From: a virus
Virus record (IMG/VR): IMGVR_UViG_3300042881_004109
Location: 1-41,080 of that record
DNA length: 41,080 bases
Direction: 5' to 3' (one strand)
Shown here: positions 7,683-37,312 of the stretch, piece by piece
How the letters are laid out: the number at the start of each line of letters is the position of its first letter
Position numbering within the stretch: the stretch's first letter is position 1
Program-made: the position numbers and the translations under genes
Notes under the pieces: generated by a model
The model's database searches: none
What the model saw: the letters and a program-made list of their open reading frames with translations, nothing else
What the model was told of the DNA's origin: nothing

Positions 7683-7692
7683 AGGTATTTCG

Positions 7693-8718
7693 ATGGTTCT
7701 CGTCCCGGCCAACAACATGGAGCGCGTCGATTCCGGCGCGTCGTCGGTCACAGCGAACACCGACGGCATGATCTCGCGGGAGGTCTCCCTGCGGTGGCTG
7801 ATCCACTCCGTCGAGACCTACACCGACGCCGAGCAGAAGGGCCGCGAGCTGGCCCCGCTCTACTACGACGGCCACCGCCGCGTGAGCCTTACGCCGCGGT
7901 CGGTCGGCAACGGCTGGTACGAGATCGAAGCGGTCTACGGCAACGCGGGCGTAAACGCTTACGAGGGGCGCGAGTTCATCAACGAGGACGGCGTGCCGAT
8001 GGTGCCGGCCGGGCTGTCGATGGACACCACCGGCGGCAAGGAAACCGTGACGATCGCGTACCAGGGCGAAGAAGACGTCAACCCGATCGCCACGGGGTAC
8101 GCGGAGAATCCGGCCATCGCCCCCAACTCCTACGGGGCGATCAACGTGTCGGGCGGCCGGGTCAACGGCGTCGAGATCACGGTGCCGTCGCTGTCGTGGA
8201 GCGAGACGTGGCTGGTCCCGGCGTGGTATCTGGTGACCGGCTCGAAGGAGCCGGCGATCAGAGAAAACGCGCAGGTCGAAGACGCGGACGACCCTTCGCA
8301 GCCCTACGCCCAGGTGCTGCACGAGATGGGCGGCATGGTGAACGAGGATCGGTTCCGGATCTTCGGCCCCGGTGAGGTGCTGTTTCTCGGGGCGAGGTTC
8401 GACGTGAACACGTCGTCCACGATGGTGCCGGTGACCTACTCGTTCGTGGCCCAGCGAAGCCGCAACGAGTTCAAGGTTGGCGACATCACGGTCACCAAGA
8501 AGGCCGGCATGGACTTTCTCTGGATCGTGTACGGGGACGAGGTGGACCAGAACTTCCCGGTCAAGAAGCCGCGATACGTCTACGTGGACCAGGTCTACCC
8601 GCGCAAGAAGTTTCTCGATCTCAAGCTCCCCGGCGGGCGGTGGTGGCCGCGGTTCTACCTGTCGGGCGGCAACACGTTCGAGCACCCGATCAGCGACGAG
8701 AAGAAGAACAAGGCATGA
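7693..8718 (+). CDS. Distal tail / baseplate protein, unrecognised family
   Basis: 341 aa. No family recognised. Mixed alpha/beta with aromatic strands (NGWYEIEAVYGN, SWSETWLVPAWYL, RPRYVYVDQVYP-like segment near 295-310) and a short Lys-rich end. It follows the tape measure, where distal tail and hub proteins are found, so a virion tip role is inferred. The ATG at 7693 is embedded in the motif GTATTTCGATG (7685-7695), and no conventional Shine-Dalgarno is seen before it. ATGA overlap with the next gene. Confidence 0.45.
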   Translation: MVLVPANNMERVDSGASSVTANTDGMISREVSLRWLIHSVETYTDAEQKGRELAPLYYDGHRRVSLTPRSVGNGWYEIEAVYGNAGVNAYEGREFINEDGVPMVPAGLSMDTTGGKETVTIAYQGEEDVNPIATGYAENPAIAPNSYGAINVSGGRVNGVEITVPSLSWSETWLVPAWYLVTGSKEPAIRENAQVEDADDPSQPYAQVLHEMGGMVNEDRFRIFGPGEVLFLGARFDVNTSSTMVPVTYSFVAQRSRNEFKVGDITVTKKAGMDFLWIVYGDEVDQNFPVKKPRYVYVDQVYPRKKFLDLKLPGGRWWPRFYLSGGNTFEHPISDEKKNKA

Positions 8719-14568: not shown

Positions 14569-15119
14569 TCGTTCTCGCTCTGATCGCCGCCGCGGCCGTG
14601 GCGTTTGGCTGGCCGCACCTTGCCCCGCTCGCCGAGCGGGCTCGAGCCGCGGCCCCCACGCTCACGCCCCGCCACTACGCCGGCATCGCCCTGGTGGCGG
14701 CGGCGATCGCGTACGGGTTTGCCCCCGCCCCCGGCCCGGCCCCCGGCCCGTCGCCGGCCCCCGACCCCGGCCCGCTGTCGCTGCGGGGTCTGTTCGCCGG
14801 GCCAACGGCGTCCGAGGACGCCGTCTTGGTGGGGGCCATGTGCGACGAGATCGCGGACGAGATCCAGTTTTCGTCGGGCCAGCCGGAGGGCTATCTGGCC
14901 ACCGGGGTGGCTGTCGATGAGCTGCGGCGGCGGGTCCGCGAGTTTCGCTGCCGGGGTATTTCGATCGGCGACCGGCAGCCGGCCGCCCGGGACGCGATCG
15001 CCAAGTTTCTCGAAGGGGCGGTCGGCACGGACGGCGGCCCGCTGAGTGCGGAGCAGCGGTCGGCGTGGGTGGCGGCGTACCGCGACGTGGGGAGGGCGGC
15101 GACCGATGCGGCGAAGTAG
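14565..15119 (+). CDS. Membrane-anchored protein with proline-rich linker
   Basis: 184 aa. TM helix 1 is MIVLALIAAAAVAFGW (1-16) and TM helix 2 YAGIALVAAAIAYGFA (about 38-53). These are followed by an Ala-Pro-Gly linker (54-70) and a soluble C-terminal domain with FSSGQPEGYLATGVAVDELRRRV. The layout (anchor, rigid linker, domain) resembles spanin or muralytic accessory proteins, but no catalytic motif is seen. A dispersed 10-mer at 14956-14965 encodes GISI. Confidence 0.45.
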   Translation: MIVLALIAAAAVAFGWPHLAPLAERARAAAPTLTPRHYAGIALVAAAIAYGFAPAPGPAPGPSPAPDPGPLSLRGLFAGPTASEDAVLVGAMCDEIADEIQFSSGQPEGYLATGVAVDELRRRVREFRCRGISIGDRQPAARDAIAKFLEGAVGTDGGPLSAEQRSAWVAAYRDVGRAATDAAK

Positions 15120-16771: not shown

Positions 16772-17100
16772 GCATGGTGTGGCGGTGGGTTATTTCGATG
16801 CTGGTCTGGCTGTCGGCCGACCACGAGCGGATCGCCACCGAGCCGGCCCGGGCGGCTGCGGCCGTGGCGGTGGCCCGCGCGTCGATCCTCGAGCAGCTCG
16901 AGGCCCGGCCCCTGCCGCCGGCCCCGCCGGGGCCGACGGCGTGCAAGTGCTCGAGCACCTGCGTGCGTGGGTCGTGGCGGCCCGATGGCCGCATCGAGGC
17001 CCGGTGCGACTGCACCTGCCCGCGGTGCGTGGCGGAGCGGGCGAAGCCCGGCACGGTTCGATCGGGGACGTGCTCGTCGGGCACCTGCCCGCCCCGGTGA
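16768..17100 (+). CDS. Small cysteine-rich protein with N-terminal TM
   Basis: 110 aa. GTG 16768 overlaps the previous stop (GTGA) and is chosen; ATG 16774 is the alternative. The start has a hydrophobic segment (WRWVISMLVWL). The C-terminal half has nine or more Cys in C-x-C and C-x2-C patterns (CKCSSTC, CDCTCPRC, CSSGTC), suggesting disulfides or zinc. Contains the 9/10 copy of the dispersed motif (16791-16799) shortly after the start. Unknown role; last third of the putative lysis block. Confidence 0.4.
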   Translation: MSMVWRWVISMLVWLSADHERIATEPARAAAAVAVARASILEQLEARPLPPAPPGPTACKCSSTCVRGSWRPDGRIEARCDCTCPRCVAERAKPGTVRSGTCSSGTCPPR

Positions 17101-17895: not shown

Positions 17896-18383
17896 GCCAT
17901 AGCCTCCTGTGCCAAGAGTTGAGCCGGAAACGATGCTACGTCAACGTCCGCCGGGCTGGTTGTCCATTCGTAGGTGACGCCGTCCGGATGCCGGGACGGG
18001 GGCAGCACGGACTGAGCGGCCCGCCCACCGAGCCGTATTTCGATCGAGTCAAACTTCACGACCGCCGACTCCGGCATCCACGGCTCCCAGCGAAAAAGCC
18101 GGTGCTCTCCCCGGGCCGACCGCCAGGTCGGGGTGGGCAGGTCGAGCACGCCGAACGCGGCCAGCTGCTCCCGGCCGGCGGGGTCGTCGTACTCGACGTC
18201 CACCACACCGGACGACGGGCCGAGCAGGAGCCCCACGTTGTCCCCGGCGGCGAGCCACCGGGCCACGTCGTCCGGGCTGGTTGTGCCACGGTGCTGCCAG
18301 CCGGTGCCGAGCGGGCGTTTCGCCCGGCGGGCGACGCGGACGAACCGGCAGTTGGCGGCGGCGAGGGATTCGATGGGGGTCAT
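17883..18383 (-). CDS. Stand-alone Prim-Pol (bifunctional primase/polymerase domain)
   Basis: 166 aa. RRAKRPLGTGWQHRGTTSPDDVARW (19-43), LLLGPSSGVVDVEYDD (52-67) with D62/E64 as the DxD/E metal site, GEHRLFRW (92-99) with H94, and IEIRLGGRAAQSVLPPS then GVTYEW (115-140) follow the order of the N-terminal Prim-Pol family (PF09250). It would synthesise primers or fill gaps. It has no helicase or C-terminal module and is near the minimum length of the family. ATG follows AGGAG. A dispersed 10-mer lies at 18035-18044, read as SIEIR in frame. Confidence 0.85.
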   Translation of the reverse strand: MTPIESLAAANCRFVRVARRAKRPLGTGWQHRGTTSPDDVARWLAAGDNVGLLLGPSSGVVDVEYDDPAGREQLAAFGVLDLPTPTWRSARGEHRLFRWEPWMPESAVVKFDSIEIRLGGRAAQSVLPPSRHPDGVTYEWTTSPADVDVASFPAQLLAQEAMAWGR

Positions 18384-20870: not shown

Positions 20871-20899
20871 GTTATAGCCGTTCGGCAAATAGAAGTCAA
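20871..20899 (-). promoter_or_regulatory. Leftward sigma70 promoter with operator in spacer (P2)
   Basis: Minus strand: TTGACT (20899-20894), 17-bp spacer TCTATTTGCCGAACGGC, TATAAC (20876-20871). The -35 overlaps the end of the upstream gene (20896). The operator core differs from P1/P3 by one base (CGAACGG for CGATCGG). Confidence 0.7.
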
Positions 20900-21480
20900 A
20901 ATGGTGCGGGGGCAAGGTGCTCGCGAGTACGGGGCCGGCCGGCGGTCGGGTGACGGGCGAACCACTGGCAATCGGCCAGCGACACCCGCCAGTTGCGGCC
21001 GGCCTTGTGGCCGCGGACCTTCCCGGCCTTCACGAGTTGCCGCAGCCATTGTTCGGTCACGTCCGCGATCGCGGCCCCCTCGACCAATCCGATGAAGGTC
21101 TCCGCGGCCCCGTTGGCCGCGGCCACATCCGCGAGCCGGGCGATCGTCTCCGCCATCACCTGGTCGGCCGGTCGCATTGTCGGGGCCGACTCCGCGAGCA
21201 CCGCGAACAGCTCATCGGCGGACATTCCACGGTCCGTGGCGGACACGTCCAGGCCGCGAACGTAGGTGGCATCCCCACCGGCGAACGCGGCCCGGTTCCG
21301 GGCCTTCCAGTGTCCGCCGTGCTCGTCGCCACAACTGGCCGAGAAAGCCCCGCGGCGGAAGTCACCGATCCGCTCCACCTCTGCGGCCTCCAGCGACCGG
21401 GCCTCACGGTACGCTGCGAGCACGTCCGCCCAATCGAGTCCGGCGGCGGCGGCGGTGGCTTTGTGTTCGTTCGTGTTCAT
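20896..21480 (-). CDS. HTH protein at head of leftward cluster
   Basis: 194 aa. ATG 21480 with GAGGAGA 8 bp upstream; the longer frame to 21615 crosses the promoter. The C-terminal 60 residues carry an excisionase-type HTH: AIADVTEQWLRQLVKAGKVR then GHKAGRNWRVSLADCQWFAR. The N-terminal two thirds are helical (AAYREARSLEAAEVERIGDF) with no match. First gene from P1 and probably a regulator of this set, possibly the ligand of its operators. Confidence 0.6.
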   Translation of the reverse strand: MNTNEHKATAAAAGLDWADVLAAYREARSLEAAEVERIGDFRRGAFSASCGDEHGGHWKARNRAAFAGGDATYVRGLDVSATDRGMSADELFAVLAESAPTMRPADQVMAETIARLADVAAANGAAETFIGLVEGAAIADVTEQWLRQLVKAGKVRGHKAGRNWRVSLADCQWFARHPTAGRPRTREHLAPAPF

Positions 21481-21506: not shown

Positions 21507-21536
21507 AGTATATGCCGATCGGCAAATAGGTGTCAA
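21507..21536 (-). promoter_or_regulatory. Leftward sigma70 promoter with operator in spacer (P1)
   Basis: Minus strand: TTGACA (21536-21531), 18-bp spacer with CCTATTTGCCGATCGGCA, TATACT (21512-21507). This copy holds the most complete palindrome, GCCGATCGGC extended to TATTTGCC/GGCATATA. It drives the HTH gene at 20896. Confidence 0.75.
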
Positions 21537-21698
21537 GTACTCCACCAAAAAAAATCGAGAGGCCGCGAAACCGCGGGCAATCGGCGGGAGTTATTGCCGA
21601 GTGGACATTTGGCAAACGCGAAACCGGACCGGGGCCGGTGGTGCTCGTGACGGTCCGCGCGCGGGCGGAGACCTGGTGAGCGTCGCGGCCATGGTCGC

Positions 21699-21736
21699 GG
21701 TCGGTCGGTCGGTCGGTCGGGCGTCGTCGTCGTCGT
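21699..21736. repeat. Simple repeats GGTC x5 and CGT x5
   Basis: Five perfect GGTC units (21699-21718) followed by GG and then five CGT units (21722-21736). Adjacent microsatellites in a phage non-coding hub could be flexible DNA or slippage products. Confidence 0.8.
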
Positions 21737-21781
21737 CACCAGCTTTCCGGGCCGGACAGGATGGCCGGCCATCGGCCGGCC

Positions 21782-21854
21782 ATCGAAATACCAGCCGCGG
21801 CCGGCTGGGGGGCGATCGAAATACCCCACGCGAGGGGGTGCCCCATCGAAATAC
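21782..21854. repeat. Three phased copies of ATCGAAATAC
   Basis: Exact copies start at 21782, 21815 and 21845, all on the same strand, with 33 and 30 bp between starts, close to three helical turns. Same-face iteron-like arrays are typical of protein-binding sites. Confidence 0.85.
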
Positions 21855-21901
21855 CACCTAGGGGGGGTGTGTTGCGTTTTGCAACACCCCCACCTAGGTG
21901 G
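21854..21901. other. Large GC-rich hairpin next to the triplet
   Basis: CCACCTAGGGGGGG...GTTGC (21854-21875) pairs with GCAAC...CCTAGGTGG (21881-21901) through a GTTTT loop, about 20 bp of stem with one bulge. No T-run, so a cruciform or bidirectional structure fits better than an intrinsic terminator. Confidence 0.6.
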
Positions 21902-22052
21902 GTAGTAACGGGGGCGTTGCGCCCCCCACCGCGGGGGGGTCCTTGGCCCCGCGGCACGCGGGGTGCCCCGGCTGCGAACTACACCCAATCGATGACTGCC
22001 GCCCGAAAGGCCCCCAGGAGCCCCAGGACGCCCGCCGCTGATCGCGGCGTGC

Positions 22053-23009
22053 TCACGCCGCGGGATCCTCTTTCGCCCGGAACTGGAGCACGTCCGGGGC
22101 CGCCGGCGGCGGGTCGTCGAGGTTCAACGGCGGCATGGCGATCGCCCCGCCGATGTCCGTGGGGCAGATCGCGGGGTCCACGTAGACCCGCTGGAGATTC
22201 GGATCCGAGTGATCGAGCAGCAGCGTGGCCGCGGCGGTCCCGCCCTTGAGGGCCGCGTAGCTCGCCGCGGTGCGGCGAAGCCCGTGGAACCCCCGATACC
22301 GCACCCCGGCCGACTCACACAACACTTTCAGCGACGCCCACTGCGACCTGGTCCGCCGATCCCACGGCCACACCAGGTCGTCGGGGCCGCGGCGGTGCTC
22401 CGCGAGCATCGCCGCCAGCTGCGGCGTGATCGACCGCTCGATGTCGCGAGTCGAGCCCTTTCTGGTCGCCCCGAGCAGCACGATCCGGCACCGCTCCAGG
22501 TCCACCTGTCCCCAGCGGAGCGCGGTGAGTGCCGAGAATCGTTCGCCCGAGCACACCGCGGCGTAGATGAGAGTCGGCCACCACCATCGGGCCGGCAGCC
22601 CGCCGACCTTGCCGATCCGCCGCTTGCCGAACCGAATGAGCCTCTCCACGTCTTCGGCCGTGTAGGCCCGGCCGACAGGCAGCCGTGTCGGCACCTTGAT
22701 CTTCGGCAGCTCCGGAAACTCCGCGGCCCACCGCTTGCGGGCGGCGTAGGTCCAGACCGCGGCGATCATGACGCGATCCTTTCGCACGCTCGCGGGACTG
22801 GGCCGCCGCCCGGCCCACGCGATCGTCTCGGCCCGCCACCGCAGGTAGCGGGCGACGACCAGGTCGTCGAAGTCGTCGGTCGTCGCCGGCCGACCCAAGA
22901 ACCGCTCGAACCGATCCCACAGCATCCGGTACAGCCCGGCCGTGTGGGGCTTCAACTCCCGCAGCAGAGCGTACCGCTCCGCGACCTCCCGAACCGTCAT
23001 GGCACACAT
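22053..23009 (-). CDS. int: Tyrosine site-specific integrase
   Basis: 318 aa. A SAM-like N-terminal core-binding domain (about 1-105, PHTAGLYRMLWDRFERFLG) precedes the catalytic domain with R157 (SGERFSAL), H242-x2-R245 (FHGLRRTAAS), H267 (LLLDHSDP) and nucleophile Y276 (QRVYVDP), the full R-HxxR-H-Y set. It should insert the phage by recombination at attP/attB. Start ATG 23009 is chosen because GGAG lies 8 bp before it; ATG 23000 is in frame. It diverges from the xis-like gene at 23253 across the attP candidate. Confidence 0.92.
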   Translation of the reverse strand: MCAMTVREVAERYALLRELKPHTAGLYRMLWDRFERFLGRPATTDDFDDLVVARYLRWRAETIAWAGRRPSPASVRKDRVMIAAVWTYAARKRWAAEFPELPKIKVPTRLPVGRAYTAEDVERLIRFGKRRIGKVGGLPARWWWPTLIYAAVCSGERFSALTALRWGQVDLERCRIVLLGATRKGSTRDIERSITPQLAAMLAEHRRGPDDLVWPWDRRTRSQWASLKVLCESAGVRYRGFHGLRRTAASYAALKGGTAAATLLLDHSDPNLQRVYVDPAICPTDIGGAIAMPPLNLDDPPPAAPDVLQFRAKEDPAA

Positions 23010-24495: not shown

Positions 24496-24813
24496 GTGCT
24501 GATTCTCAGCCGCTACCAGGGACAGGCAATCCGGATCGGTCCGGACGTGACGGTCGTGGTGACCGCGATCAAGCAGGCCAACGGCTGCCGCCCCATGGTG
24601 AAGCTGGGCATCGACGCGCCCCAGTCCATCACGGTGATCCGCGAGGAAATCGAGGAGCGATATGGCGCACCAAACGACAGCGACCAGCGATGCCGCGAGG
24701 CGTCGGGAGGCGAAGCAGGCACTGGGGCTCGCCCGTGCGTGCCGGCTTCTCCGAGCAGTGAATCTCATGCTCACGTCCGCGGCGGCTGTCCGCGGCCAGA
24801 GCAGGGTGTTTGA
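24496..24813 (+). CDS. csrA: CsrA/RsmA RNA-binding regulator
   Basis: GTG 24496 after GGAGGGG. MLILSRYQGQAIRIGPDVTV then VKLGIDAPQSITVIREEIEE matches CsrA start to end (MLILSR, G-I-x-AP, V-x-REE). CsrA controls translation by binding GGA motifs. The domain ends near residue 57; the rest of the 105-aa frame to 24813 is atypical and overlaps the gene at 24662 by 152 bp, so the tail may be a lost stop. CsrA is uncommon in phages and could control late or lysis switching. Confidence 0.85.
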   Translation: MLILSRYQGQAIRIGPDVTVVVTAIKQANGCRPMVKLGIDAPQSITVIREEIEERYGAPNDSDQRCREASGGEAGTGARPCVPASPSSESHAHVRGGCPRPEQGV

Positions 24814-26484: not shown

Positions 26485-26799
26485 ATGGCAACGCCAGTAT
26501 TTCGATCGCGGGTTCATGTGGACTACCACTTCAACGTCAGCATCACCCGCGAGCAGGGCGATGCGATCATCGTGGACGGCCAGCGATTCGTGCGCCTGCT
26601 CGGCGGCTCATTCATGTTGAGCATGACCGGCGAGTGGCACTACTCGCTACGCGAGGCCGACCTGTCGGTGCTCGCGACGCTGTCCAGTCTCCGCGGCCGG
26701 GTCGATGACCTGGTCGCCACGATCCAACGGCCGCTCCCGGCCGCAGACGCTGCACAGGTTCCGGCGTCGGGGAGAGCGCACGCGGGGGTCGCGACGTAA
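26485..26799 (+). CDS. Small protein, unrecognised
   Basis: 104 aa, AAGGA 8 bp before the ATG. A beta-rich first half (HVDYHFNVSITREQGDAIIV, FVRLLGGSFMLSMTGEW) and a helical end. Contains a dispersed 10-mer at 26497-26506, 12 bases after the ATG (read PVFRS). A repressor on that site would block its translation or transcription. Function unknown. Confidence 0.45.
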   Translation: MATPVFRSRVHVDYHFNVSITREQGDAIIVDGQRFVRLLGGSFMLSMTGEWHYSLREADLSVLATLSSLRGRVDDLVATIQRPLPAADAAQVPASGRAHAGVAT

Positions 26800-27148: not shown

Positions 27149-27469
27149 ATGGCGCTCAAAACCACCGACGAAGCGATCGCGGCCCTGCCGATCTTCGCCC
27201 AGCTGCGAGCCCGGCCCAGCGACCCGCCGACATCGCACGCGGCTGCGAAGCGGGCCGCGAAGACGGCCGGCGGCCACCGGGACGCGATCGTCGAGGCGCT
27301 CGCGGCCGGGCCGGCGGGGCAGACCGAGATCGCCCGGCGGGCCGGGCTGTCGGTGGCCCAGGTGAGCAAGCGGCTCAAGGAGCTGCGGGACGGCGGGCGG
27401 ATCGAGCGGACCGGGCGCGATGTGGCGGCGGGGGAGTGTGAGTATCGAAATACCGAGGCAAGGAGGTAG
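27149..27469 (+). CDS. Winged-helix DNA-binding protein
   Basis: 106 aa. AGPAGQTEIARRAGLSVAQV then SKRLKELRDGGRIERTGRD is a MarR/ArsR-like wHTH: helix, recognition helix, wing. The first part is TSHAAAKRAAKTAGG, as in phage proteins that precede such a wing. A dispersed motif at 27444-27453 near its 3' end is read EYRNT. Candidate transcription regulator or helicase-loader partner. Confidence 0.6.
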   Translation: MALKTTDEAIAALPIFAQLRARPSDPPTSHAAAKRAAKTAGGHRDAIVEALAAGPAGQTEIARRAGLSVAQVSKRLKELRDGGRIERTGRDVAAGECEYRNTEARR

Positions 27470-27852: not shown

Positions 27853-28737
27853 ATGGCCGGTGAATGGATCGCGGTAGACATTGCCCTGCCGGACAAGCCG
27901 GAGTTCCAGGAGATCATGGACCTGACCGGCCGTGACGAGGCGTGGGTCGAGTTCCTGCTCATCCGGATGTGGGGCTGGGCCTCGATGCACTGTGCCGACG
28001 GCACGGCACGGATGACCATGCCACGGATGGTGAGAACGTGGGGGGCGGACGAAGCCTTCTGGCTGGCCGTGGCCAGCGTGGGCTGGCTGGAGATCGACGA
28101 GACGGCCGCTACCGTTGCTGTCCCCGGATGGGACCGCCGGTTCAGCCAGGCGGCCAAGTCGAGAGCCCAGCACCAGGACCGGGCAAAGGCCCAAAACGAC
28201 CGCGAACCCGAGCGTCGGCGACGCGCAGCGGTTGCCTGCGCTCAAGCGCAGGCACTGCCTGCGCCGACGCGCAGTAGAGGAGAGGAGAGGAGAATTCCTC
28301 CTCCTCCGCGTGAGGCTTCGCCGTCCGAGGCCGGCAGCAGCGGCTGGGAGGCACTCCGGGCCGCATGGGGCTCCGGCCCCGGAGCGGCATGGAAGCCCGC
28401 CGCCCCGCCCGAGCCGCTCGCGGACCGGCTCGCGGAGCCCGGGTGGCTCGCCGAAGCCCTGGAGGCCATCCCGCGGCTGCGGGCGTGCCGGTATTTCGAT
28501 ACCCCGGTGACGCTGGTGCAGTTCTGCGGCCACGGGTTCGTCCAGCGAGTGCTCGGCGGGCAGTACGACGCCCCGAAGACACCTAAGAAACCTGCCGGCG
28601 GCCCCGACGCCCCAGCCCCGCCCCGCATCGACCCGGCGTTCGAGGCCGCCAAGGCCGCGACGCTGGCCCGGGAGGCGGCCCGCCGGGCCGCGGAGCACGC
28701 CCGGCTCGACGCCCAAGCCGCAGGAGCCGCCCCATGA
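27853..28737 (+). CDS. Phage replication protein (helicase-loader / initiator-like)
   Basis: 294 aa. WIAVDIALPDKPEFQEIMDL then WVEFLLIRMWGWASMHCADG resembles the N-terminal wHTH of phage replisome organisers. A long low-complexity linker (about 115-150, Arg/Ala/Pro/Glu) separates it from a C-terminal helical part with AWGSGPGAAW and TLVQFCGHGFVQ. The linker DNA holds the inverted-repeat array (28212-28274). Lambda O has the same arrangement, with the origin inside the gene. A dispersed motif lies at 28491 (RYFD). It likely starts theta replication with host helicase. Stop is ATGA-coupled to the next gene. Confidence 0.65.
   Translation: MAGEWIAVDIALPDKPEFQEIMDLTGRDEAWVEFLLIRMWGWASMHCADGTARMTMPRMVRTWGADEAFWLAVASVGWLEIDETAATVAVPGWDRRFSQAAKSRAQHQDRAKAQNDREPERRRRAAVACAQAQALPAPTRSRGEERRIPPPPREASPSEAGSSGWEALRAAWGSGPGAAWKPAAPPEPLADRLAEPGWLAEALEAIPRLRACRYFDTPVTLVQFCGHGFVQRVLGGQYDAPKTPKKPAGGPDAPAPPRIDPAFEAAKAATLAREAARRAAEHARLDAQAAGAAP
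28212..28274. other. Origin-like inverted-repeat array inside replication gene
   Basis: Outer arms GCGTCGGCG (28212-28220) and CGCCGACGC (28262-28270) enclose an inner perfect palindrome with arms TGCCTGCGCT (28233-28242) and its complement (28245-28254). A direct third copy TGCCTGCGC is at 28256, and CGACGCGCAG occurs at 28219 and 28265. It is followed by a GA-rich/EcoRI-centred segment (about 28275-28308). Lambda-like origin is inferred. Confidence 0.5.
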
Positions 28738-29000
28738 CCCGCAAACTCTCTGCCGCGTCGATCCTCGCCGCCCGCTCGCAGGGCACGACCACCGCCCAGC
28801 GGCAGCTGCTCGAAGTATTTCGATCGCTCCGCGACTCGCAGGGGTACGCCCCGACGTTTCGCGAGCTGGCCGACGAGATCGGCGTCAACGTCGGCGACGT
28901 GTCGGCGAAAATGTGGCGGCTCCGGCGGGACGGGGTCGTCGATTGGCACGACGGCAAGGCCAGGACCATCCGGATCGTGGGGGACTCATGGGGCTCTTGA
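28734..29000 (+). CDS. LexA-type winged helix without protease domain
   Basis: 88 aa. TTAQRQLLEVFRSLRDSQGY then APTFRELADEIGVNVGDVSA and RDGVVDWHDGKARTIRIV match the LexA N-terminal domain (GYxPTxREIA..., wing with K/R-A-R). There is no S24 peptidase. It could be a compact phage repressor or SOS mimic and a candidate for binding the dispersed motif. A copy of the motif lies inside its own gene (28815-28824). Confidence 0.7.
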   Translation: MTRKLSAASILAARSQGTTTAQRQLLEVFRSLRDSQGYAPTFRELADEIGVNVGDVSAKMWRLRRDGVVDWHDGKARTIRIVGDSWGS

Positions 29001-29476
29001 TCGGGATAGACCCCGGCATCACCGGGGCGATCGCGGTGATCGGCGACGGACAGGTGGCGTGCCGGGAGATGCCGGCCGTGGAGATCAACGGCAAGCGGCG
29101 GGTGGACCCGGCGGGGCTCACCACCGCCCTCGCGGCCATCCTGCAGGCCGGCCACCAGGTCGAGATGGCGGTGCTGGAGCACGTCCAGGGCGTGCAGGGC
29201 ACCGGGGCCACGTCCGCGTTCTCCTTCGGCCGGTCGTTCGGGGTGGTCGAGGGGGTGCTGGCCGGGCTCGCGATCCCGCACACGCTCGTCCGGCCGCAGG
29301 TCTGGACCAAGGCGCTGGGCGTGAGCCGGGACAAGGGCAGCCACCGGGCCGCGGCGGCCCGGCTCTGGCCCAAGCACGCGGAGTTGTTCGCCCGCGTGAA
29401 GGACGACGGGCGTGCCGACGCGGTGCTGCTCTGCCACTGGTACGAGAGGTGTCATGGGACGTCCGCAGTCGGCTGA
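28988..29476 (+). CDS. RuvC-like Holliday junction resolvase
   Basis: 162 aa, ATG 28988. IGIDPGITGAIAVI (4-17) has the first Asp, AVLEHVQGV the Glu, and DDGRADAVLL the C-terminal Asp pair, so the RNase-H-like RuvC site is present. It would resolve junctions or branched DNA before packaging. Overlaps the previous gene by 13 bp and the terminase start by 23 bp. Confidence 0.8.
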   Translation: MGLLIGIDPGITGAIAVIGDGQVACREMPAVEINGKRRVDPAGLTTALAAILQAGHQVEMAVLEHVQGVQGTGATSAFSFGRSFGVVEGVLAGLAIPHTLVRPQVWTKALGVSRDKGSHRAAAARLWPKHAELFARVKDDGRADAVLLCHWYERCHGTSAVG

Positions 29477-31568
29477 CCCGGCCAAGGCCGCAGAGCGAAA
29501 GCGGCTGCTCGACCTGGAGCGGACCCGCGAGCGTACGCGCCGCGGTGCCGATATCGGTGAGATTCCCAAGGTGGTGGACGCCGCCCGGCGTGAGTCGTGC
29601 CGGCTCGACCTGGAGCGGTTCCTGGTGACGTACTTCCCGTACTCCACCGGGCTCTCGCCCTTCTCCGACGACCACAAGCGGGTGATCTCGCGGATCCAGG
29701 ACTGCGTGACGCGCGGCGGCCGGTTCGTGAACGCGGTCTACCGCGGCTTCGCCAAGTCAACGATCTCGGAGTTGGCCCTGCTATGGGCCATGCTCTACGG
29801 GCACAAGCGGTTCGGCGGGATCTTCGCGGCCGAGAGCGACCTGGCCGCCAAGGCCATCAACTCGATCCGCACCGAGCTCTCCGACAACGACCTGCTCTAC
29901 GACGACTTCCCCGAGGTGTGCCACGCGGTCCGGGCGCTTGAGGGCAAGGCCCAGCGGTGCAACTCGCAGACGCACAACGGCCGGCGTACCCACATCGGCT
30001 GGAAGAAAGACACGCTCGTGCTGCCGACGATCGAGGGGTCGGTGTCGAGCGGTGCGATCATCATGTCCCGCGGGCTCACCGGCTCGATCCTGGGGCTCCG
30101 GTGGAAAACGCCCGAGGGCCACCAGCTGCGGCCCGACTTCACGATAGTGGACGACCCGCAGACCCGCGAGTCGGCCCGGTCGCCGGTGCAGTGCCAGGCC
30201 CGGCTGGAGATCCTGACCAAGAGCGTGATGAAGCTCGCCGGCCACACGAAGTCGATGGCGTGCGTGGTCAACGCCACGGTGATCGAGCAGGACGACATGG
30301 TGGACCAGCTGCTCGACCAGGGCCGCTACCCCGCGTGGCAGGGCGAGCGGATCCCGATGGTCCGGCAGTTTGCCGACCGCCACGAAGATCTCTGGATGGA
30401 GCGGTATCGCGAACTGCGATGCACGTTTGCGAAGGACGTGGTGGGCGACCAGGCCCGCGCCCACCGCGAGGCCAACGAGTTCTACGCCGCCAACCGCGAC
30501 GAGATGGACCGCGGGTGTCTGGTGTCGTGGGCGTCATGCTTCGACCCGGACGTCGAGGTCTCCGCGATCCAGCACGCCTACAACGCCCTCATCGACGATG
30601 GCCCGGACGTGTTCGCGTCGGAGTTTCAACAAGCACCGCTCAAGAACGCGGCCGAGTCGCTGGGGATCTCGCCGGACGAGGTCCGGGGCCGGGCCATCGA
30701 AATACCCGTGGGCGTGGTGCCGCGCGGGTGCGACACGCTCACGGCGTTTGTCGATGTGCAGGAGAAGCTCCTGTACTGGGCGGTCGTGGCGTGGGGCTCG
30801 CAGCTCCGCGGGCACCTGGTGGCGTACGGGGCGTACCCCGAGCAGGGCCGGAGCTACTACACGCTCCGCGACTCGAAAAAGACGCTTGTGAAGGCCGCCG
30901 GCGGGGCTTCGCTCGAGGCCGCGATCCACGCGGGGCTCGAGACCGTGGCGGCGTCGCTCCTGGGCCGTGAGTTCACCCGCGAAGACGACGACGCGGTGCT
31001 GCGGGTGGGGCAGCTGTTCGTCGATGCCAACTGGGCACAGACGCAGGGCGTCGTCCGCGACTTCGCCCGCCGGTCGTCGTTCGGGCCGCGGGTGCTGCCG
31101 ACCCATGGCCGGTTCGTGGGCGCGAGCGGCCAGACGATCTCGGACAAGCGGCCGGACCGCGGCGAGCGGATCGGGCACAACTGGCGGACGAGCACGATCG
31201 GCAGGCAGCGGCACGTTCTCTACGACACCAACGCATGGAAGACGTTTGTGGCGTCCCGGCTCAAGCTCCCGGCCGCGGACCCGCAAGCGTTCACGGTCCA
31301 CGCGGGCTCGCACGAGATGCTCGTGGAGCACCTGTCGGCGGAGGCCCCGGTTCGCGTCGAGTCGAAGATGCGGACGGTGGACGAGTGGAAGCTGATACCG
31401 GGCCGCGACAACCACTGGTGGGACTGTCTCGTCGGTGCCGCGGTGGCCGCGAGCTACTCCGGCGTGACGGCCGTGGGGGCCGAGGTGGTCAAGCCCGTGC
31501 GAAAGGTCATCACCCGCGAGGAGATGGCGGCACGCCGTGCGGCGATCATGGGCAAGATGGGCAGATGA
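29454..31568 (+). CDS. terL: Terminase large subunit (GpA-like)
   Basis: 704 aa; ATG 29454 with GAGAGG upstream. An ATPase region has VYRGFAKSTISELAL (Walker A-like, about 102-116) and FTIVDDPQTRES as Walker B. RNase-H-like nuclease residues lie in the second half (TLTAFVDVQEKLLYWAVVAW, NHWWDCLVGAAVAAS). GpA-type enzymes cleave and pump DNA into the prohead. No small-subunit gene is recognised nearby. A dispersed motif is at 30696-30705 (AIEIP). The open frame is intact. Confidence 0.85.
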   Translation: MGRPQSADPAKAAERKRLLDLERTRERTRRGADIGEIPKVVDAARRESCRLDLERFLVTYFPYSTGLSPFSDDHKRVISRIQDCVTRGGRFVNAVYRGFAKSTISELALLWAMLYGHKRFGGIFAAESDLAAKAINSIRTELSDNDLLYDDFPEVCHAVRALEGKAQRCNSQTHNGRRTHIGWKKDTLVLPTIEGSVSSGAIIMSRGLTGSILGLRWKTPEGHQLRPDFTIVDDPQTRESARSPVQCQARLEILTKSVMKLAGHTKSMACVVNATVIEQDDMVDQLLDQGRYPAWQGERIPMVRQFADRHEDLWMERYRELRCTFAKDVVGDQARAHREANEFYAANRDEMDRGCLVSWASCFDPDVEVSAIQHAYNALIDDGPDVFASEFQQAPLKNAAESLGISPDEVRGRAIEIPVGVVPRGCDTLTAFVDVQEKLLYWAVVAWGSQLRGHLVAYGAYPEQGRSYYTLRDSKKTLVKAAGGASLEAAIHAGLETVAASLLGREFTREDDDAVLRVGQLFVDANWAQTQGVVRDFARRSSFGPRVLPTHGRFVGASGQTISDKRPDRGERIGHNWRTSTIGRQRHVLYDTNAWKTFVASRLKLPAADPQAFTVHAGSHEMLVEHLSAEAPVRVESKMRTVDEWKLIPGRDNHWWDCLVGAAVAASYSGVTAVGAEVVKPVRKVITREEMAARRAAIMGKMGR

Positions 31569-35543: not shown

Positions 35544-37312
35544 TGGGGATTCTCTCCGGACTGCTCGGGCCATCCCGGGCCAAGATGCAGAGCGCGATCG
35601 CGACCCAGCAGGCCGCGATCGCGACGCTCGTGCGTGCGAAGTACGACGCCGCACAGACCACCGACCTGAACCGCCGGCACTGGGCGCTCGCCGACTACTA
35701 CTCCGCCGACGCCGCCCTCTCCCCGGCCGTCCGGCAGAAAATGCGGGCGCGAGCCCGGTACGAGCTGGCGAACAACTCCTACGCCGCGGGCATGGCGTCC
35801 ACCTGGTCGCACGACCTGGTCGGCACCGGCCCCCGGCTCCACCTAGATCTCGGGCCGGACGCCGACCCGGAGCTGGTCCGCCGGATCGAGCTGGCGGTCT
35901 ACGACTGGTCGGTGAACATCGACCTGGCGAAGAAGCTCCGCGTCGCCAAGCACGCGAAGATCGGCGACGGCGAGGTGTTCGGCGTGCAGGTGACCAACCG
36001 CTCGCTCCGGGGCGTGCAGGTGGACCTGCGGCTGATCGAGAGCGATCACTGCGTGTCGCCCACCGGCTTCCCCACCGAGACCGACGTGGACGGCGTCGAG
36101 TTCGACGACGACGGCAACCCGGCCCGGTATTGGTTCACCCGCAACCACCCCGGCTCGCTCACGCCCGGCTGGACGCTGGACGGCCGGTGGCACGCCGCCG
36201 ACAAGGTCCACCACTGGTTTCACGCGACCCGCCCGGGCCAGCACCGCGGTGTGCCGGAGATCGCCCCGGCTCTCGAACTGTTCGCCATGCTGCGGCGGTT
36301 CACGCTCGCGACCGTGACGGCCGCGGAGACCGCGGCCGACTTCGCGGCGATCCTCAAGACGACCATGCCGGCCGACGGCGGCGGGGCCGCGTCGCTGGAG
36401 ACGCTGGAGACCATGCCGATCACCCGAGGGATGGCGATCGCCGCCCCGGACGGCTGGGAGCCGGTGCAGATGAAGGCCGAGCACCCGACGAGCAACTACG
36501 ACTCGTTCGTGCGTCGGCTCCTCAACGAGATCAGTCGCTGCATCGATATGCCCTACATCGTGGCCGCGATGGACTCGTCCACCGCGAACTACTCGTCGAT
36601 GCGGGGCGACTACCTGGTGTACCGCAAGCGGATCTCGGTCGAGCGCAACGACATGGAGCGGGTGTTTCTCGACCCGCTGCTCGTGGCGTGGCTGGAGGAG
36701 GCCGCCCTGGTGCCGGGGCTTATCCCCGACGGGCTGCCGCCGGTGGCCGAGTGGAACTGGACTTGGACGTGGGACGGGTTCGAGCACGTCGATCCGCTCA
36801 AGGAGGCCGACGCCGAGGCGGCCATGCTCGCGGCCAACACGACGACCATCGCCGAGGTCTGCCAGAAGCGCAACAAGGACTGGCGGCAGGTGCTGCGGCA
36901 GCGGGCCGTGGAGAAGACGCTGGAGCGTGAGTTGGGTATTTCGATGGGCGAACCCGTCGCGGCCGACGCCGGCGACACCGACATCGAAGCCGCCGACGGC
37001 TACCGGCCGCCGCAGGCCGCAAGGTCCGCGGCCCGGCGCGGCCTGGAGCTGCGATCGAAATACGGCCGCGGCGGCACTGCGGTGGGCATCGCCCGGGCTC
37101 GCGACATCGCGGGCGGCCGGTCGCTCCCGCTCGACACGATCGCCCGGATGGTGTCGTTCTTCGCCCGGCACGCGGCCTACAAGGACAACCACGGCGAAGA
37201 TCCGCCCTCCAACGCCGAGATCTCGTGGCTCCTGTGGGGCGGCGACGCCGGTCGGGCGTGGGCCGAGCGGATTTGGACCCGCGAGAACGCCGACGAGGAG
37301 CAGACCGCATGA
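35543..37312 (+). CDS. Portal protein (lambda family)
   Basis: 589 aa. The N-terminus (MGILSGLLGPSRAKMQSAIA) leads to ARYELANNSYAAGMASTWSH and DLVGTGPRLHLDLG, as in lambda-type portals. Then DRVHHWFHATRPGQHRGVPE-like LHHWFHATRPGQHRGVPE (about 216-231), MDSSTANYSSMRGDYLVYRK and a C-terminal WNWTWTWDGFEHVDPLKEA. This is the dodecameric DNA gate of the head. Two dispersed motifs (36936, 37054) are in the C-terminal third, in opposite orientations. ATGA-coupled to the capsid gene. Confidence 0.85.
   Translation: MGILSGLLGPSRAKMQSAIATQQAAIATLVRAKYDAAQTTDLNRRHWALADYYSADAALSPAVRQKMRARARYELANNSYAAGMASTWSHDLVGTGPRLHLDLGPDADPELVRRIELAVYDWSVNIDLAKKLRVAKHAKIGDGEVFGVQVTNRSLRGVQVDLRLIESDHCVSPTGFPTETDVDGVEFDDDGNPARYWFTRNHPGSLTPGWTLDGRWHAADKVHHWFHATRPGQHRGVPEIAPALELFAMLRRFTLATVTAAETAADFAAILKTTMPADGGGAASLETLETMPITRGMAIAAPDGWEPVQMKAEHPTSNYDSFVRRLLNEISRCIDMPYIVAAMDSSTANYSSMRGDYLVYRKRISVERNDMERVFLDPLLVAWLEEAALVPGLIPDGLPPVAEWNWTWTWDGFEHVDPLKEADAEAAMLAANTTTIAEVCQKRNKDWRQVLRQRAVEKTLERELGISMGEPVAADAGDTDIEAADGYRPPQAARSAARRGLELRSKYGRGGTAVGIARARDIAGGRSLPLDTIARMVSFFARHAAYKDNHGEDPPSNAEISWLLWGGDAGRAWAERIWTRENADEEQTA

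Follow-up and report, generated by a model that had tools for sequence, protein, structure and literature searches.

The most probable reading of the non-coding hub in this DNA, held with moderate confidence, is that it comprises a cos region together with a cosB-like phased array of short direct repeats, in a temperate tailed phage whose hosts are probably planctomycetes. The window, by which we mean the whole 41,080-bp virus record (68% G+C), carries the gene set of a temperate tailed phage, with a GpA-type terminase, a lambda-type portal, a protease/major head protein, and a tape measure, and it also encodes Prim-Pol, Sak4, a replication initiator, and a tyrosine integrase. The relatives of its terminase in annotated genomes lie mostly in planctomycetes and their neighbours, at up to 46% identity. 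To our knowledge, few tailed phages of planctomycetes have been characterised. A megablast search of 13 kb of the sequence against phages gave no match, and the Rfam and tRNA scans of the window were also empty; thus, the window contains no known RNA or tRNA att site.

The core of the hub is formed by three copies of the 10-mer ATCGAAATAC on the plus strand, at 21782–21791, 21815–21824 (33 bp from copy 1), and 21845–21854 (30 bp from copy 2). Copy 1 is identical in the relatives L122 and L083, and copy 3 differs by one base in G004 and L122 (CACCGAAATAC). If the 15 exact copies in the window were placed at random, the chance of finding three on the same strand within 63 bp would be ~8e-4. Copy 1 is abutted by the palindromic GATGGCCGGCCATC with a doubled GGCCGGCCATC (21763–21784; GGCCGGCCATC at 21763 and 21774), and a large inverted repeat (21854–21901) lies between the array and the terminus, where many relatives have one of a different sequence. 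The low-complexity tracts at 21699–21736, GGTC×5 (from 21699) and CGT×5 (from 21722), are replaced by other short repeats in relatives. The folding of the 21699–21985 strand is far above that of shuffled sequences (z = −5.0), with hairpins ahead of copy 1, between copies 1 and 2, and at 21854–21901. All of the hub elements listed in the preliminary description are present where it placed them; the hub itself, however, does not end at 21953, as the putative cos at 21967–21979 is located just past that edge. This putative cos is a conserved 13-bp element, and on the left of the hub are a conserved promoter and a helix-turn-helix (HTH) gene.

The triplet is a specific conserved element. The preliminary description would have been refuted had related phages not kept the spacing, but two to three copies at a ~33-bp pitch recur in dozens of diverged metagenomic relatives. 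The first 12 relatives examined have their copies upstream of the HTH gene, most often two or three on one strand, and 34 of 43 loci that were found through the HTH gene, and that have it in full length with at least 330 bp of upstream sequence, carry one or more copies there. The spacer DNA is diverged or unrelated among these phages, yet a pitch of 32–34 bp dominates, and pitches of 21–22, 29–30, 36, 41, 44, 47, 55, 57, and 60 bp are also seen. Sixteen of the 25 distinct spacers differ from a multiple of 11 by at most 1 bp. Helical phasing over all distinct spacers has p ≤ 0.001 at periods of 10.5–11, but without the 33-bp class it is not significant (p ~0.14). The earlier suggestion that the triplet presents its sites on one face of the helix is thus plausible from the full set, whereas the spacings other than 33 bp do not carry it by themselves, and we regard the evidence for phasing near multiples of 11 bp as suggestive. 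In some clades, the array unit is a fuller dyad, GTATTTCG-N4-CGAAATAC, so that the binder may act as a dimer there and on half-sites in the window. In the hub of G007 and L037, the array units are inverted pairs, GTATTTCGGAATCGAAATAC, rather than tandem single sites.

The array is also linked to the contig termini. It persists in phages whose integrase is only 27–30% identical, and most relatives of both integrase types have neither the array nor the motif. In a divergent clade (L225–L236), the array is ~1.5–4 kb from the HTH gene, but it begins 46–47 bp into contigs L234 and L236, which open with the same GTCTGC. Since the array stays beside the terminus when the integrase is replaced or the HTH gene lies farther off, the conserved unit is the terminus plus the array. 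In this same clade, the dispersed copies of the motif are almost absent, which indicates that the spread over the genome probably arose later, in the window's clade, and agrees with the earlier suggestion of the array as the primary, nucleating site. On the other hand, the role first assigned to the hub (immunity, partition, or attachment) is not upheld, as the array does not follow the integrase type and the contig ends show likely packaging termini, which the preliminary description had not taken into account.

The position of these ends, which were deduced from assembled contigs, is evidence for cos. In most relatives, the stretch from the array to the integrase gene contains large inverted repeats and, in leftward order from the integrase gene, GTTCGCAGCCGGG, a short hairpin (e.g., GCACCCCGCGTGCCGCGGGGC), and GGAAGGACC. 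In the window, the integrase gene (22053–23009, minus strand) lies on the other side of the terminus from the array, the 13-mer GTTCGCAGCCGGG is at 21967–21979 (minus strand; CCCGGCTGCGAAC on the plus strand), and the adjoining conserved segment, a GCACCCCGCGTGCCGCGGGG hairpin followed by AAGGACC, is at 21939–21966 (minus strand). Thirteen contigs stop within 1.5 kb downstream of the integrase gene, and 12 of them end, within one base, at the homologous position just before GTTCG; the exception, L098, runs 19 nt further. Contig L289, which has an integrase of another family, ends at the same base. On the HTH side, six contigs (L201, L204, L205, L209, L210, and L214) begin at the outer edge of the conserved segment, 21–22 nt before GGAAGGACC, the start of L205 being directly preceded by the Illumina adapter TCTTCCGATCT, and other contigs start elsewhere in the repetitive stretch. 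Altogether, 19 contig ends in assemblies of different phages, not counting the exception L098, stand at two homologous bases that flank the 13-mer, which is missing from both sets of ends and present between the two sides in intact junctions.

A physical DNA end is the preferred explanation, as a break of the assembly in shared sequence would not leave out precisely 13 bases from each side. Because the contig ends flank it on both sides, the 13-mer is probably the cos cut site, and the simplest cause of the missing 13 nt would be the loss of a single-stranded end during library preparation. The absence of these nucleotides from both sides implies 3′ overhangs, since both sides would retain the 13-mer if a 5′ end had been filled in. 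This weighs against the cos reading, as lambda has a TerL from the same GpA family but 5′ overhangs, the lambda-type cos having 5′ cohesive ends of 12 nt. In five relatives (L084, L085, L091, L092, and L095), the gap between the integrase gene and the terminus holds an additional gene that looks, by eye, like an HNH homing endonuclease.

Which protein might bind the array? The gene at 20896–21477 (minus strand) encodes a 193-aa protein with a ~120-aa N-terminal helical domain and a C-terminal excisionase/BldC-like winged HTH (wHTH) domain that resembles Pukovnik Xis, BldC, and RdfS (E 0.15–0.6, probability 0.85–1.0). Where the contigs of the motif-bearing phages tested extend over this region, they carry the gene. 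Directly next to the gene of the terminase large subunit (terL; GpA family, 29412–31568, plus strand), which is ~7.4 kb from the putative cos, no terS could be recognised; the genes directly upstream of terL encode a RuvC-like resolvase (28985–29476, plus strand, recognised by a GIDPGITGAIAVI motif) and an 88-aa protein with a DNA-binding domain of the LexA type but no protease domain (28734–29000, plus strand). As the 193-aa protein adjoins the array, has a Xis/BldC-like fold, and occurs in motif-bearing phages, and as no terS lies beside terL, we consider it the best candidate for the array binder. It may nevertheless be a regulator that shares the site instead of a packaging protein, because excisionase models fit it better (PHROG, E about 2e-5) than terminase small subunit models (E 0.015, weak). 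Its gene sits in an apparent early leftward operon with a primase, an unusual place for a small terminase. The protein has no match at E ≤ 1e-5 in a collection of 50,697 phage records (INPHARED), and the HTH alignment, when searched against 392 planctomycete genomes, yielded only weak matches, mostly to the wHTH alone, and identified no host.

Upstream of the HTH gene, a strong sigma70-like promoter (TTGACA..TATACT, 21507–21536, minus strand) contains the palindrome TGCCGATCGGCA, and a conserved box, CGCGTTTGCCAAATGTCCACTCGGCAATAAC (21590–21620, minus strand), lies between the promoter and the array. Promoter-like sequence ahead of the HTH gene is kept in relatives, where the palindrome differs in sequence and in many cases is still palindromic; this suggests that it may be the operator of a dimeric repressor. 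Elsewhere in the window, the phage encodes a CsrA homologue (24496–24813, plus strand; Pfam PF02599, E 8e-16).

The motif extends well beyond the hub. ATCGAAATAC is the most over-represented 10-mer of the window, with 15 exact copies (7 plus, 8 minus) compared with 0.01–0.3 expected under Markov orders 1–4. The dispersed copies are under selection, even inside genes: 31 confident genes hold eight copies, compared with 0.026 when synonymous codons are shuffled (500 shuffles, maximum 1 copy). ATA is rare in the window (8 of 318 Ile codons), and three of these eight codons fall inside motif copies (2928, 18036, and 30702). Copies on the minus strand lie at 1825–1834 (matching context in G004, G008, and G009), 7685–7694 (overlapping the start codon of gene 7693), 14956–14965 (kept in G004, G005, G008, and G009), 18035–18044 (in the Prim-Pol gene, kept in G004), 26497–26506 (kept in G004 and L083), 28491–28500 (within the gene of the replication initiator; many relatives with 68–77% DNA identity retain it), 28815–28824 (in the LexA-like wHTH gene), and 36936–36945 (in the portal gene). 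Those on the plus strand lie at 2922–2931 (codons ATC GAA ATA, also in G008 and G009), 27444–27453 (near the start of gene 27472), 30696–30705 (in terL, ATC GAA ATA CCC, with the rare ATA codon), and 37054–37063 (in the portal gene). A 9-mer form, ATCGAAATA followed by A, is found at 16791–16799 (minus strand, kept in G004). The site in terL is kept in most relatives at 77–94% DNA identity, with ATCGAAGTGCC or a similar sequence in others. The 77-kb record G004 (IMGVR_UViG_3300042453_002958) seemingly joins two related phages (1–35600 and 35600–77375) and has the motif only in its right half; it seems to be either tandem prophages or a chimeric assembly.

Among relatives with a terminase identity of at least 70%, the core CGAAATAC was observed 185 times compared with 9.6 expected, whereas phages with related integrases but without the HTH gene had 7 compared with 8.4 expected in 550 kb; the loci counted include some overlapping or near-identical contigs, and not all counts are independent. 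Other motifs recur in these phages as well. In the clade with the divergent HTH gene, AACGTGGAAAC was considered as a switch of motif that would reflect co-evolution of the binder; this explanation was rejected, as AACGTGGAAAC is mostly co-directional, with copies ~17 bp before start codons, and as these genomes still have the CGAAATAC array. In the divergent sister clade (L229, L231, L236, and L225; e.g., L236:3901–3918), as many as 18 copies of CCCCCGAACGTGGAAAC are found per 14 kb, nearly all co-directional, with one copy ~17 bp before the HTH start codon; this sequence may be an operator or a leader element. Another leader motif that recurs, CCACAACC(ACAACC)n, occurs 13–28 times per ~11 kb in L191 and L200–L206; it is co-directional in the examples read, several copies precede AGGAG and ATG, and its form in the window is mostly GGTTGTGG (11 copies).

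We propose that the terminase would cut concatemeric DNA at the conserved 13-bp site (21967–21979), and that the two to three tandem (AT)CGAAATAC copies, about 45–200 bp from the cut, would form a cosB-like anchoring array bound by a wHTH protein, either the small terminase or an accessory architectural protein. The ~33-bp pitch, equal to three helical turns, would set these proteins on one face of the DNA, and the bound proteins would wrap or bend the GC-rich inverted repeats so that the terminase nuclease is placed on the 13-bp site. The conserved array does stand at a cosB-like distance from the putative cosN, making it a candidate for terminase binding. The dispersed copies across the genome, however, are not predicted by a cosB-like array; in the window's clade, these copies probably draw the same protein to a further task, silencing or condensation. 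The wider idea that a packaging-site sequence spread genome-wide, with one wHTH protein linking cos packaging to genome silencing or organisation, is in our judgement unlikely.

Could the array be the nucleation site of a silencing system? Here a repressor, perhaps the 193-aa wHTH protein, would nucleate on the array, sit on the single sites, and block prophage transcription, in the manner of the L5-group stoperators or the P1 C1 operators. Much of the dispersed pattern is consistent with this: the sites are asymmetric, ~10 bp long, spaced one per ~3 kb, and selected against synonymous codons; the preferred consensus is clade-specific (ATCGAAATAC[CT]C for the group of the window and nCGAAATACTC for G007); promoter-like sequence before the HTH gene is conserved; and the site density follows that gene, with 97 sites compared with 6.9 expected at loci with HTH identity of at least 50%, the array excluded. 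The dispersed copies may have a silencing function. Silencing as the explanation of the hub is nevertheless somewhat unlikely, given that the array is also found in the clade without dispersed sites and tracks the contig termini, and that no Cro/CI-like repressor domain was identified. In addition, the sites are mostly genic (95 of 165 in coding sequence, 40 co-directional and 55 opposed, by approximate gene calls), with no strong orientation bias and only a slight enrichment within 30 bp of starts (17% compared with 8.6%), whereas L5 stoperators are intergenic, oriented with transcription, and inactive if reversed (PMC9283540, PMC6550527).

The neighbouring integrase and the Xis-like wHTH fold of the 193-aa protein (a candidate excisionase, with weak E-values and high probability) raise another explanation, in which the triplet would consist of arm-type sites of the integrase or of excisionase (RDF) sites, with the hairpins lying within attP, and the contigs would end at the att core because prophage sequence parts from host sequence there. 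Xis sites in the form of direct repeats are frequent for this class of fold, and the array does lie on the arm away from the integrase gene. We consider an attP arm quite improbable, however, because the array is kept with an integrase only 27–30% identical, phages with closely related integrases have no array (the 7 compared with 8.4 sites above), and the contig ends do not share the 13-mer but lack it, one of them starting with a sequencing adapter; nor would att sites explain the dispersed copies. Array sites do not co-vary with the tyrosine integrase, and integrase arm sites were rejected since neither the motif nor the array follows it. Very improbable is a partition or host-factor site, in which case the array would be a cluster of the parS/centromere type or a site for a host nucleoid protein (or a Chi-like site) with copies throughout the phage DNA. 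A cluster with dispersed single sites does resemble centromere or anchoring systems, and RacA-like wHTH folds are among the weak structure matches of the HTH protein; against this, no ParA/ParB was found among the genes scanned, the sites lack a Chi- or KOPS-like strand bias, and the array is fixed beside the contig termini. The motif was rejected as a host-wide signal, as Zavarzinella has nine copies of ATCGAAATAC in 10.1 Mb, about as composition predicts, and two other planctomycete genomes have 0 and 2.

If the cos reading is correct, it defines the packaging terminus of a large group of environmental phages, with a cosB-like array made of spaced direct repeats without a recognised IHF site, and provides a rare case of one recognition site present at cos and genome-wide under selection. 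In lambda, cosB spans ~120 bp and has three TerS sites (R3, R2, and R1) read by a wHTH domain (PMC4669245). The hub resembles a lambda-type cos in having a putative cut site where the genome ends, a group of no more than three short sites within ~50–200 bp on one side, bending or hairpin elements between them, and a wHTH domain as the candidate reader (PMC4669245). It differs in that all array sites share one orientation at a ~33-bp pitch, whereas lambda R2 is inverted, and in having GC-rich inverted repeats in place of a recognised IHF site. The putative cos lies between the integrase and HTH genes, far from terL, and the 13 nt absent from both contig sides point to 3′ overhangs instead of the 5′ cohesive ends of lambda. 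The wHTH of lambda Nu1 is N-terminal and that of the 193-aa protein C-terminal, and the wHTH gene of a lambda-type TerS is beside terL, whereas the candidate here is beside the putative cos. Unlike in lambda, the same site is dispersed over the genome in one clade.

With the stoperators of L5 and Bxb1 (cluster A mycobacteriophages), the dispersed sites share their number (more than 10), their short asymmetric form, a subgroup-specific consensus, and a temperate phage genome. Stoperators, however, are found between genes, point in the direction of transcription, and do not work in the reverse orientation (PMC9283540, PMC6550527), whereas the sites here are mostly intragenic and unoriented, and their only conserved cluster is at the probable packaging terminus. 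As they are mostly genic, on both strands, and only slightly enriched at starts, we do not regard this system as a member of the L5 stoperator type. The third comparison is with the BldC/Xis/RdfS family of wHTH proteins, which matches the C-terminal domain of the 193-aa protein in fold and the array in its direct-repeat sites of single orientation; BldC itself binds asymmetric direct repeats head to tail (PMC5859096). The BldC/Xis sites are contiguous repeats of ~9–10 bp, whereas the array sites are ~33 bp apart, and, unlike these proteins, the 193-aa candidate bears its large helical domain ahead of the wHTH.
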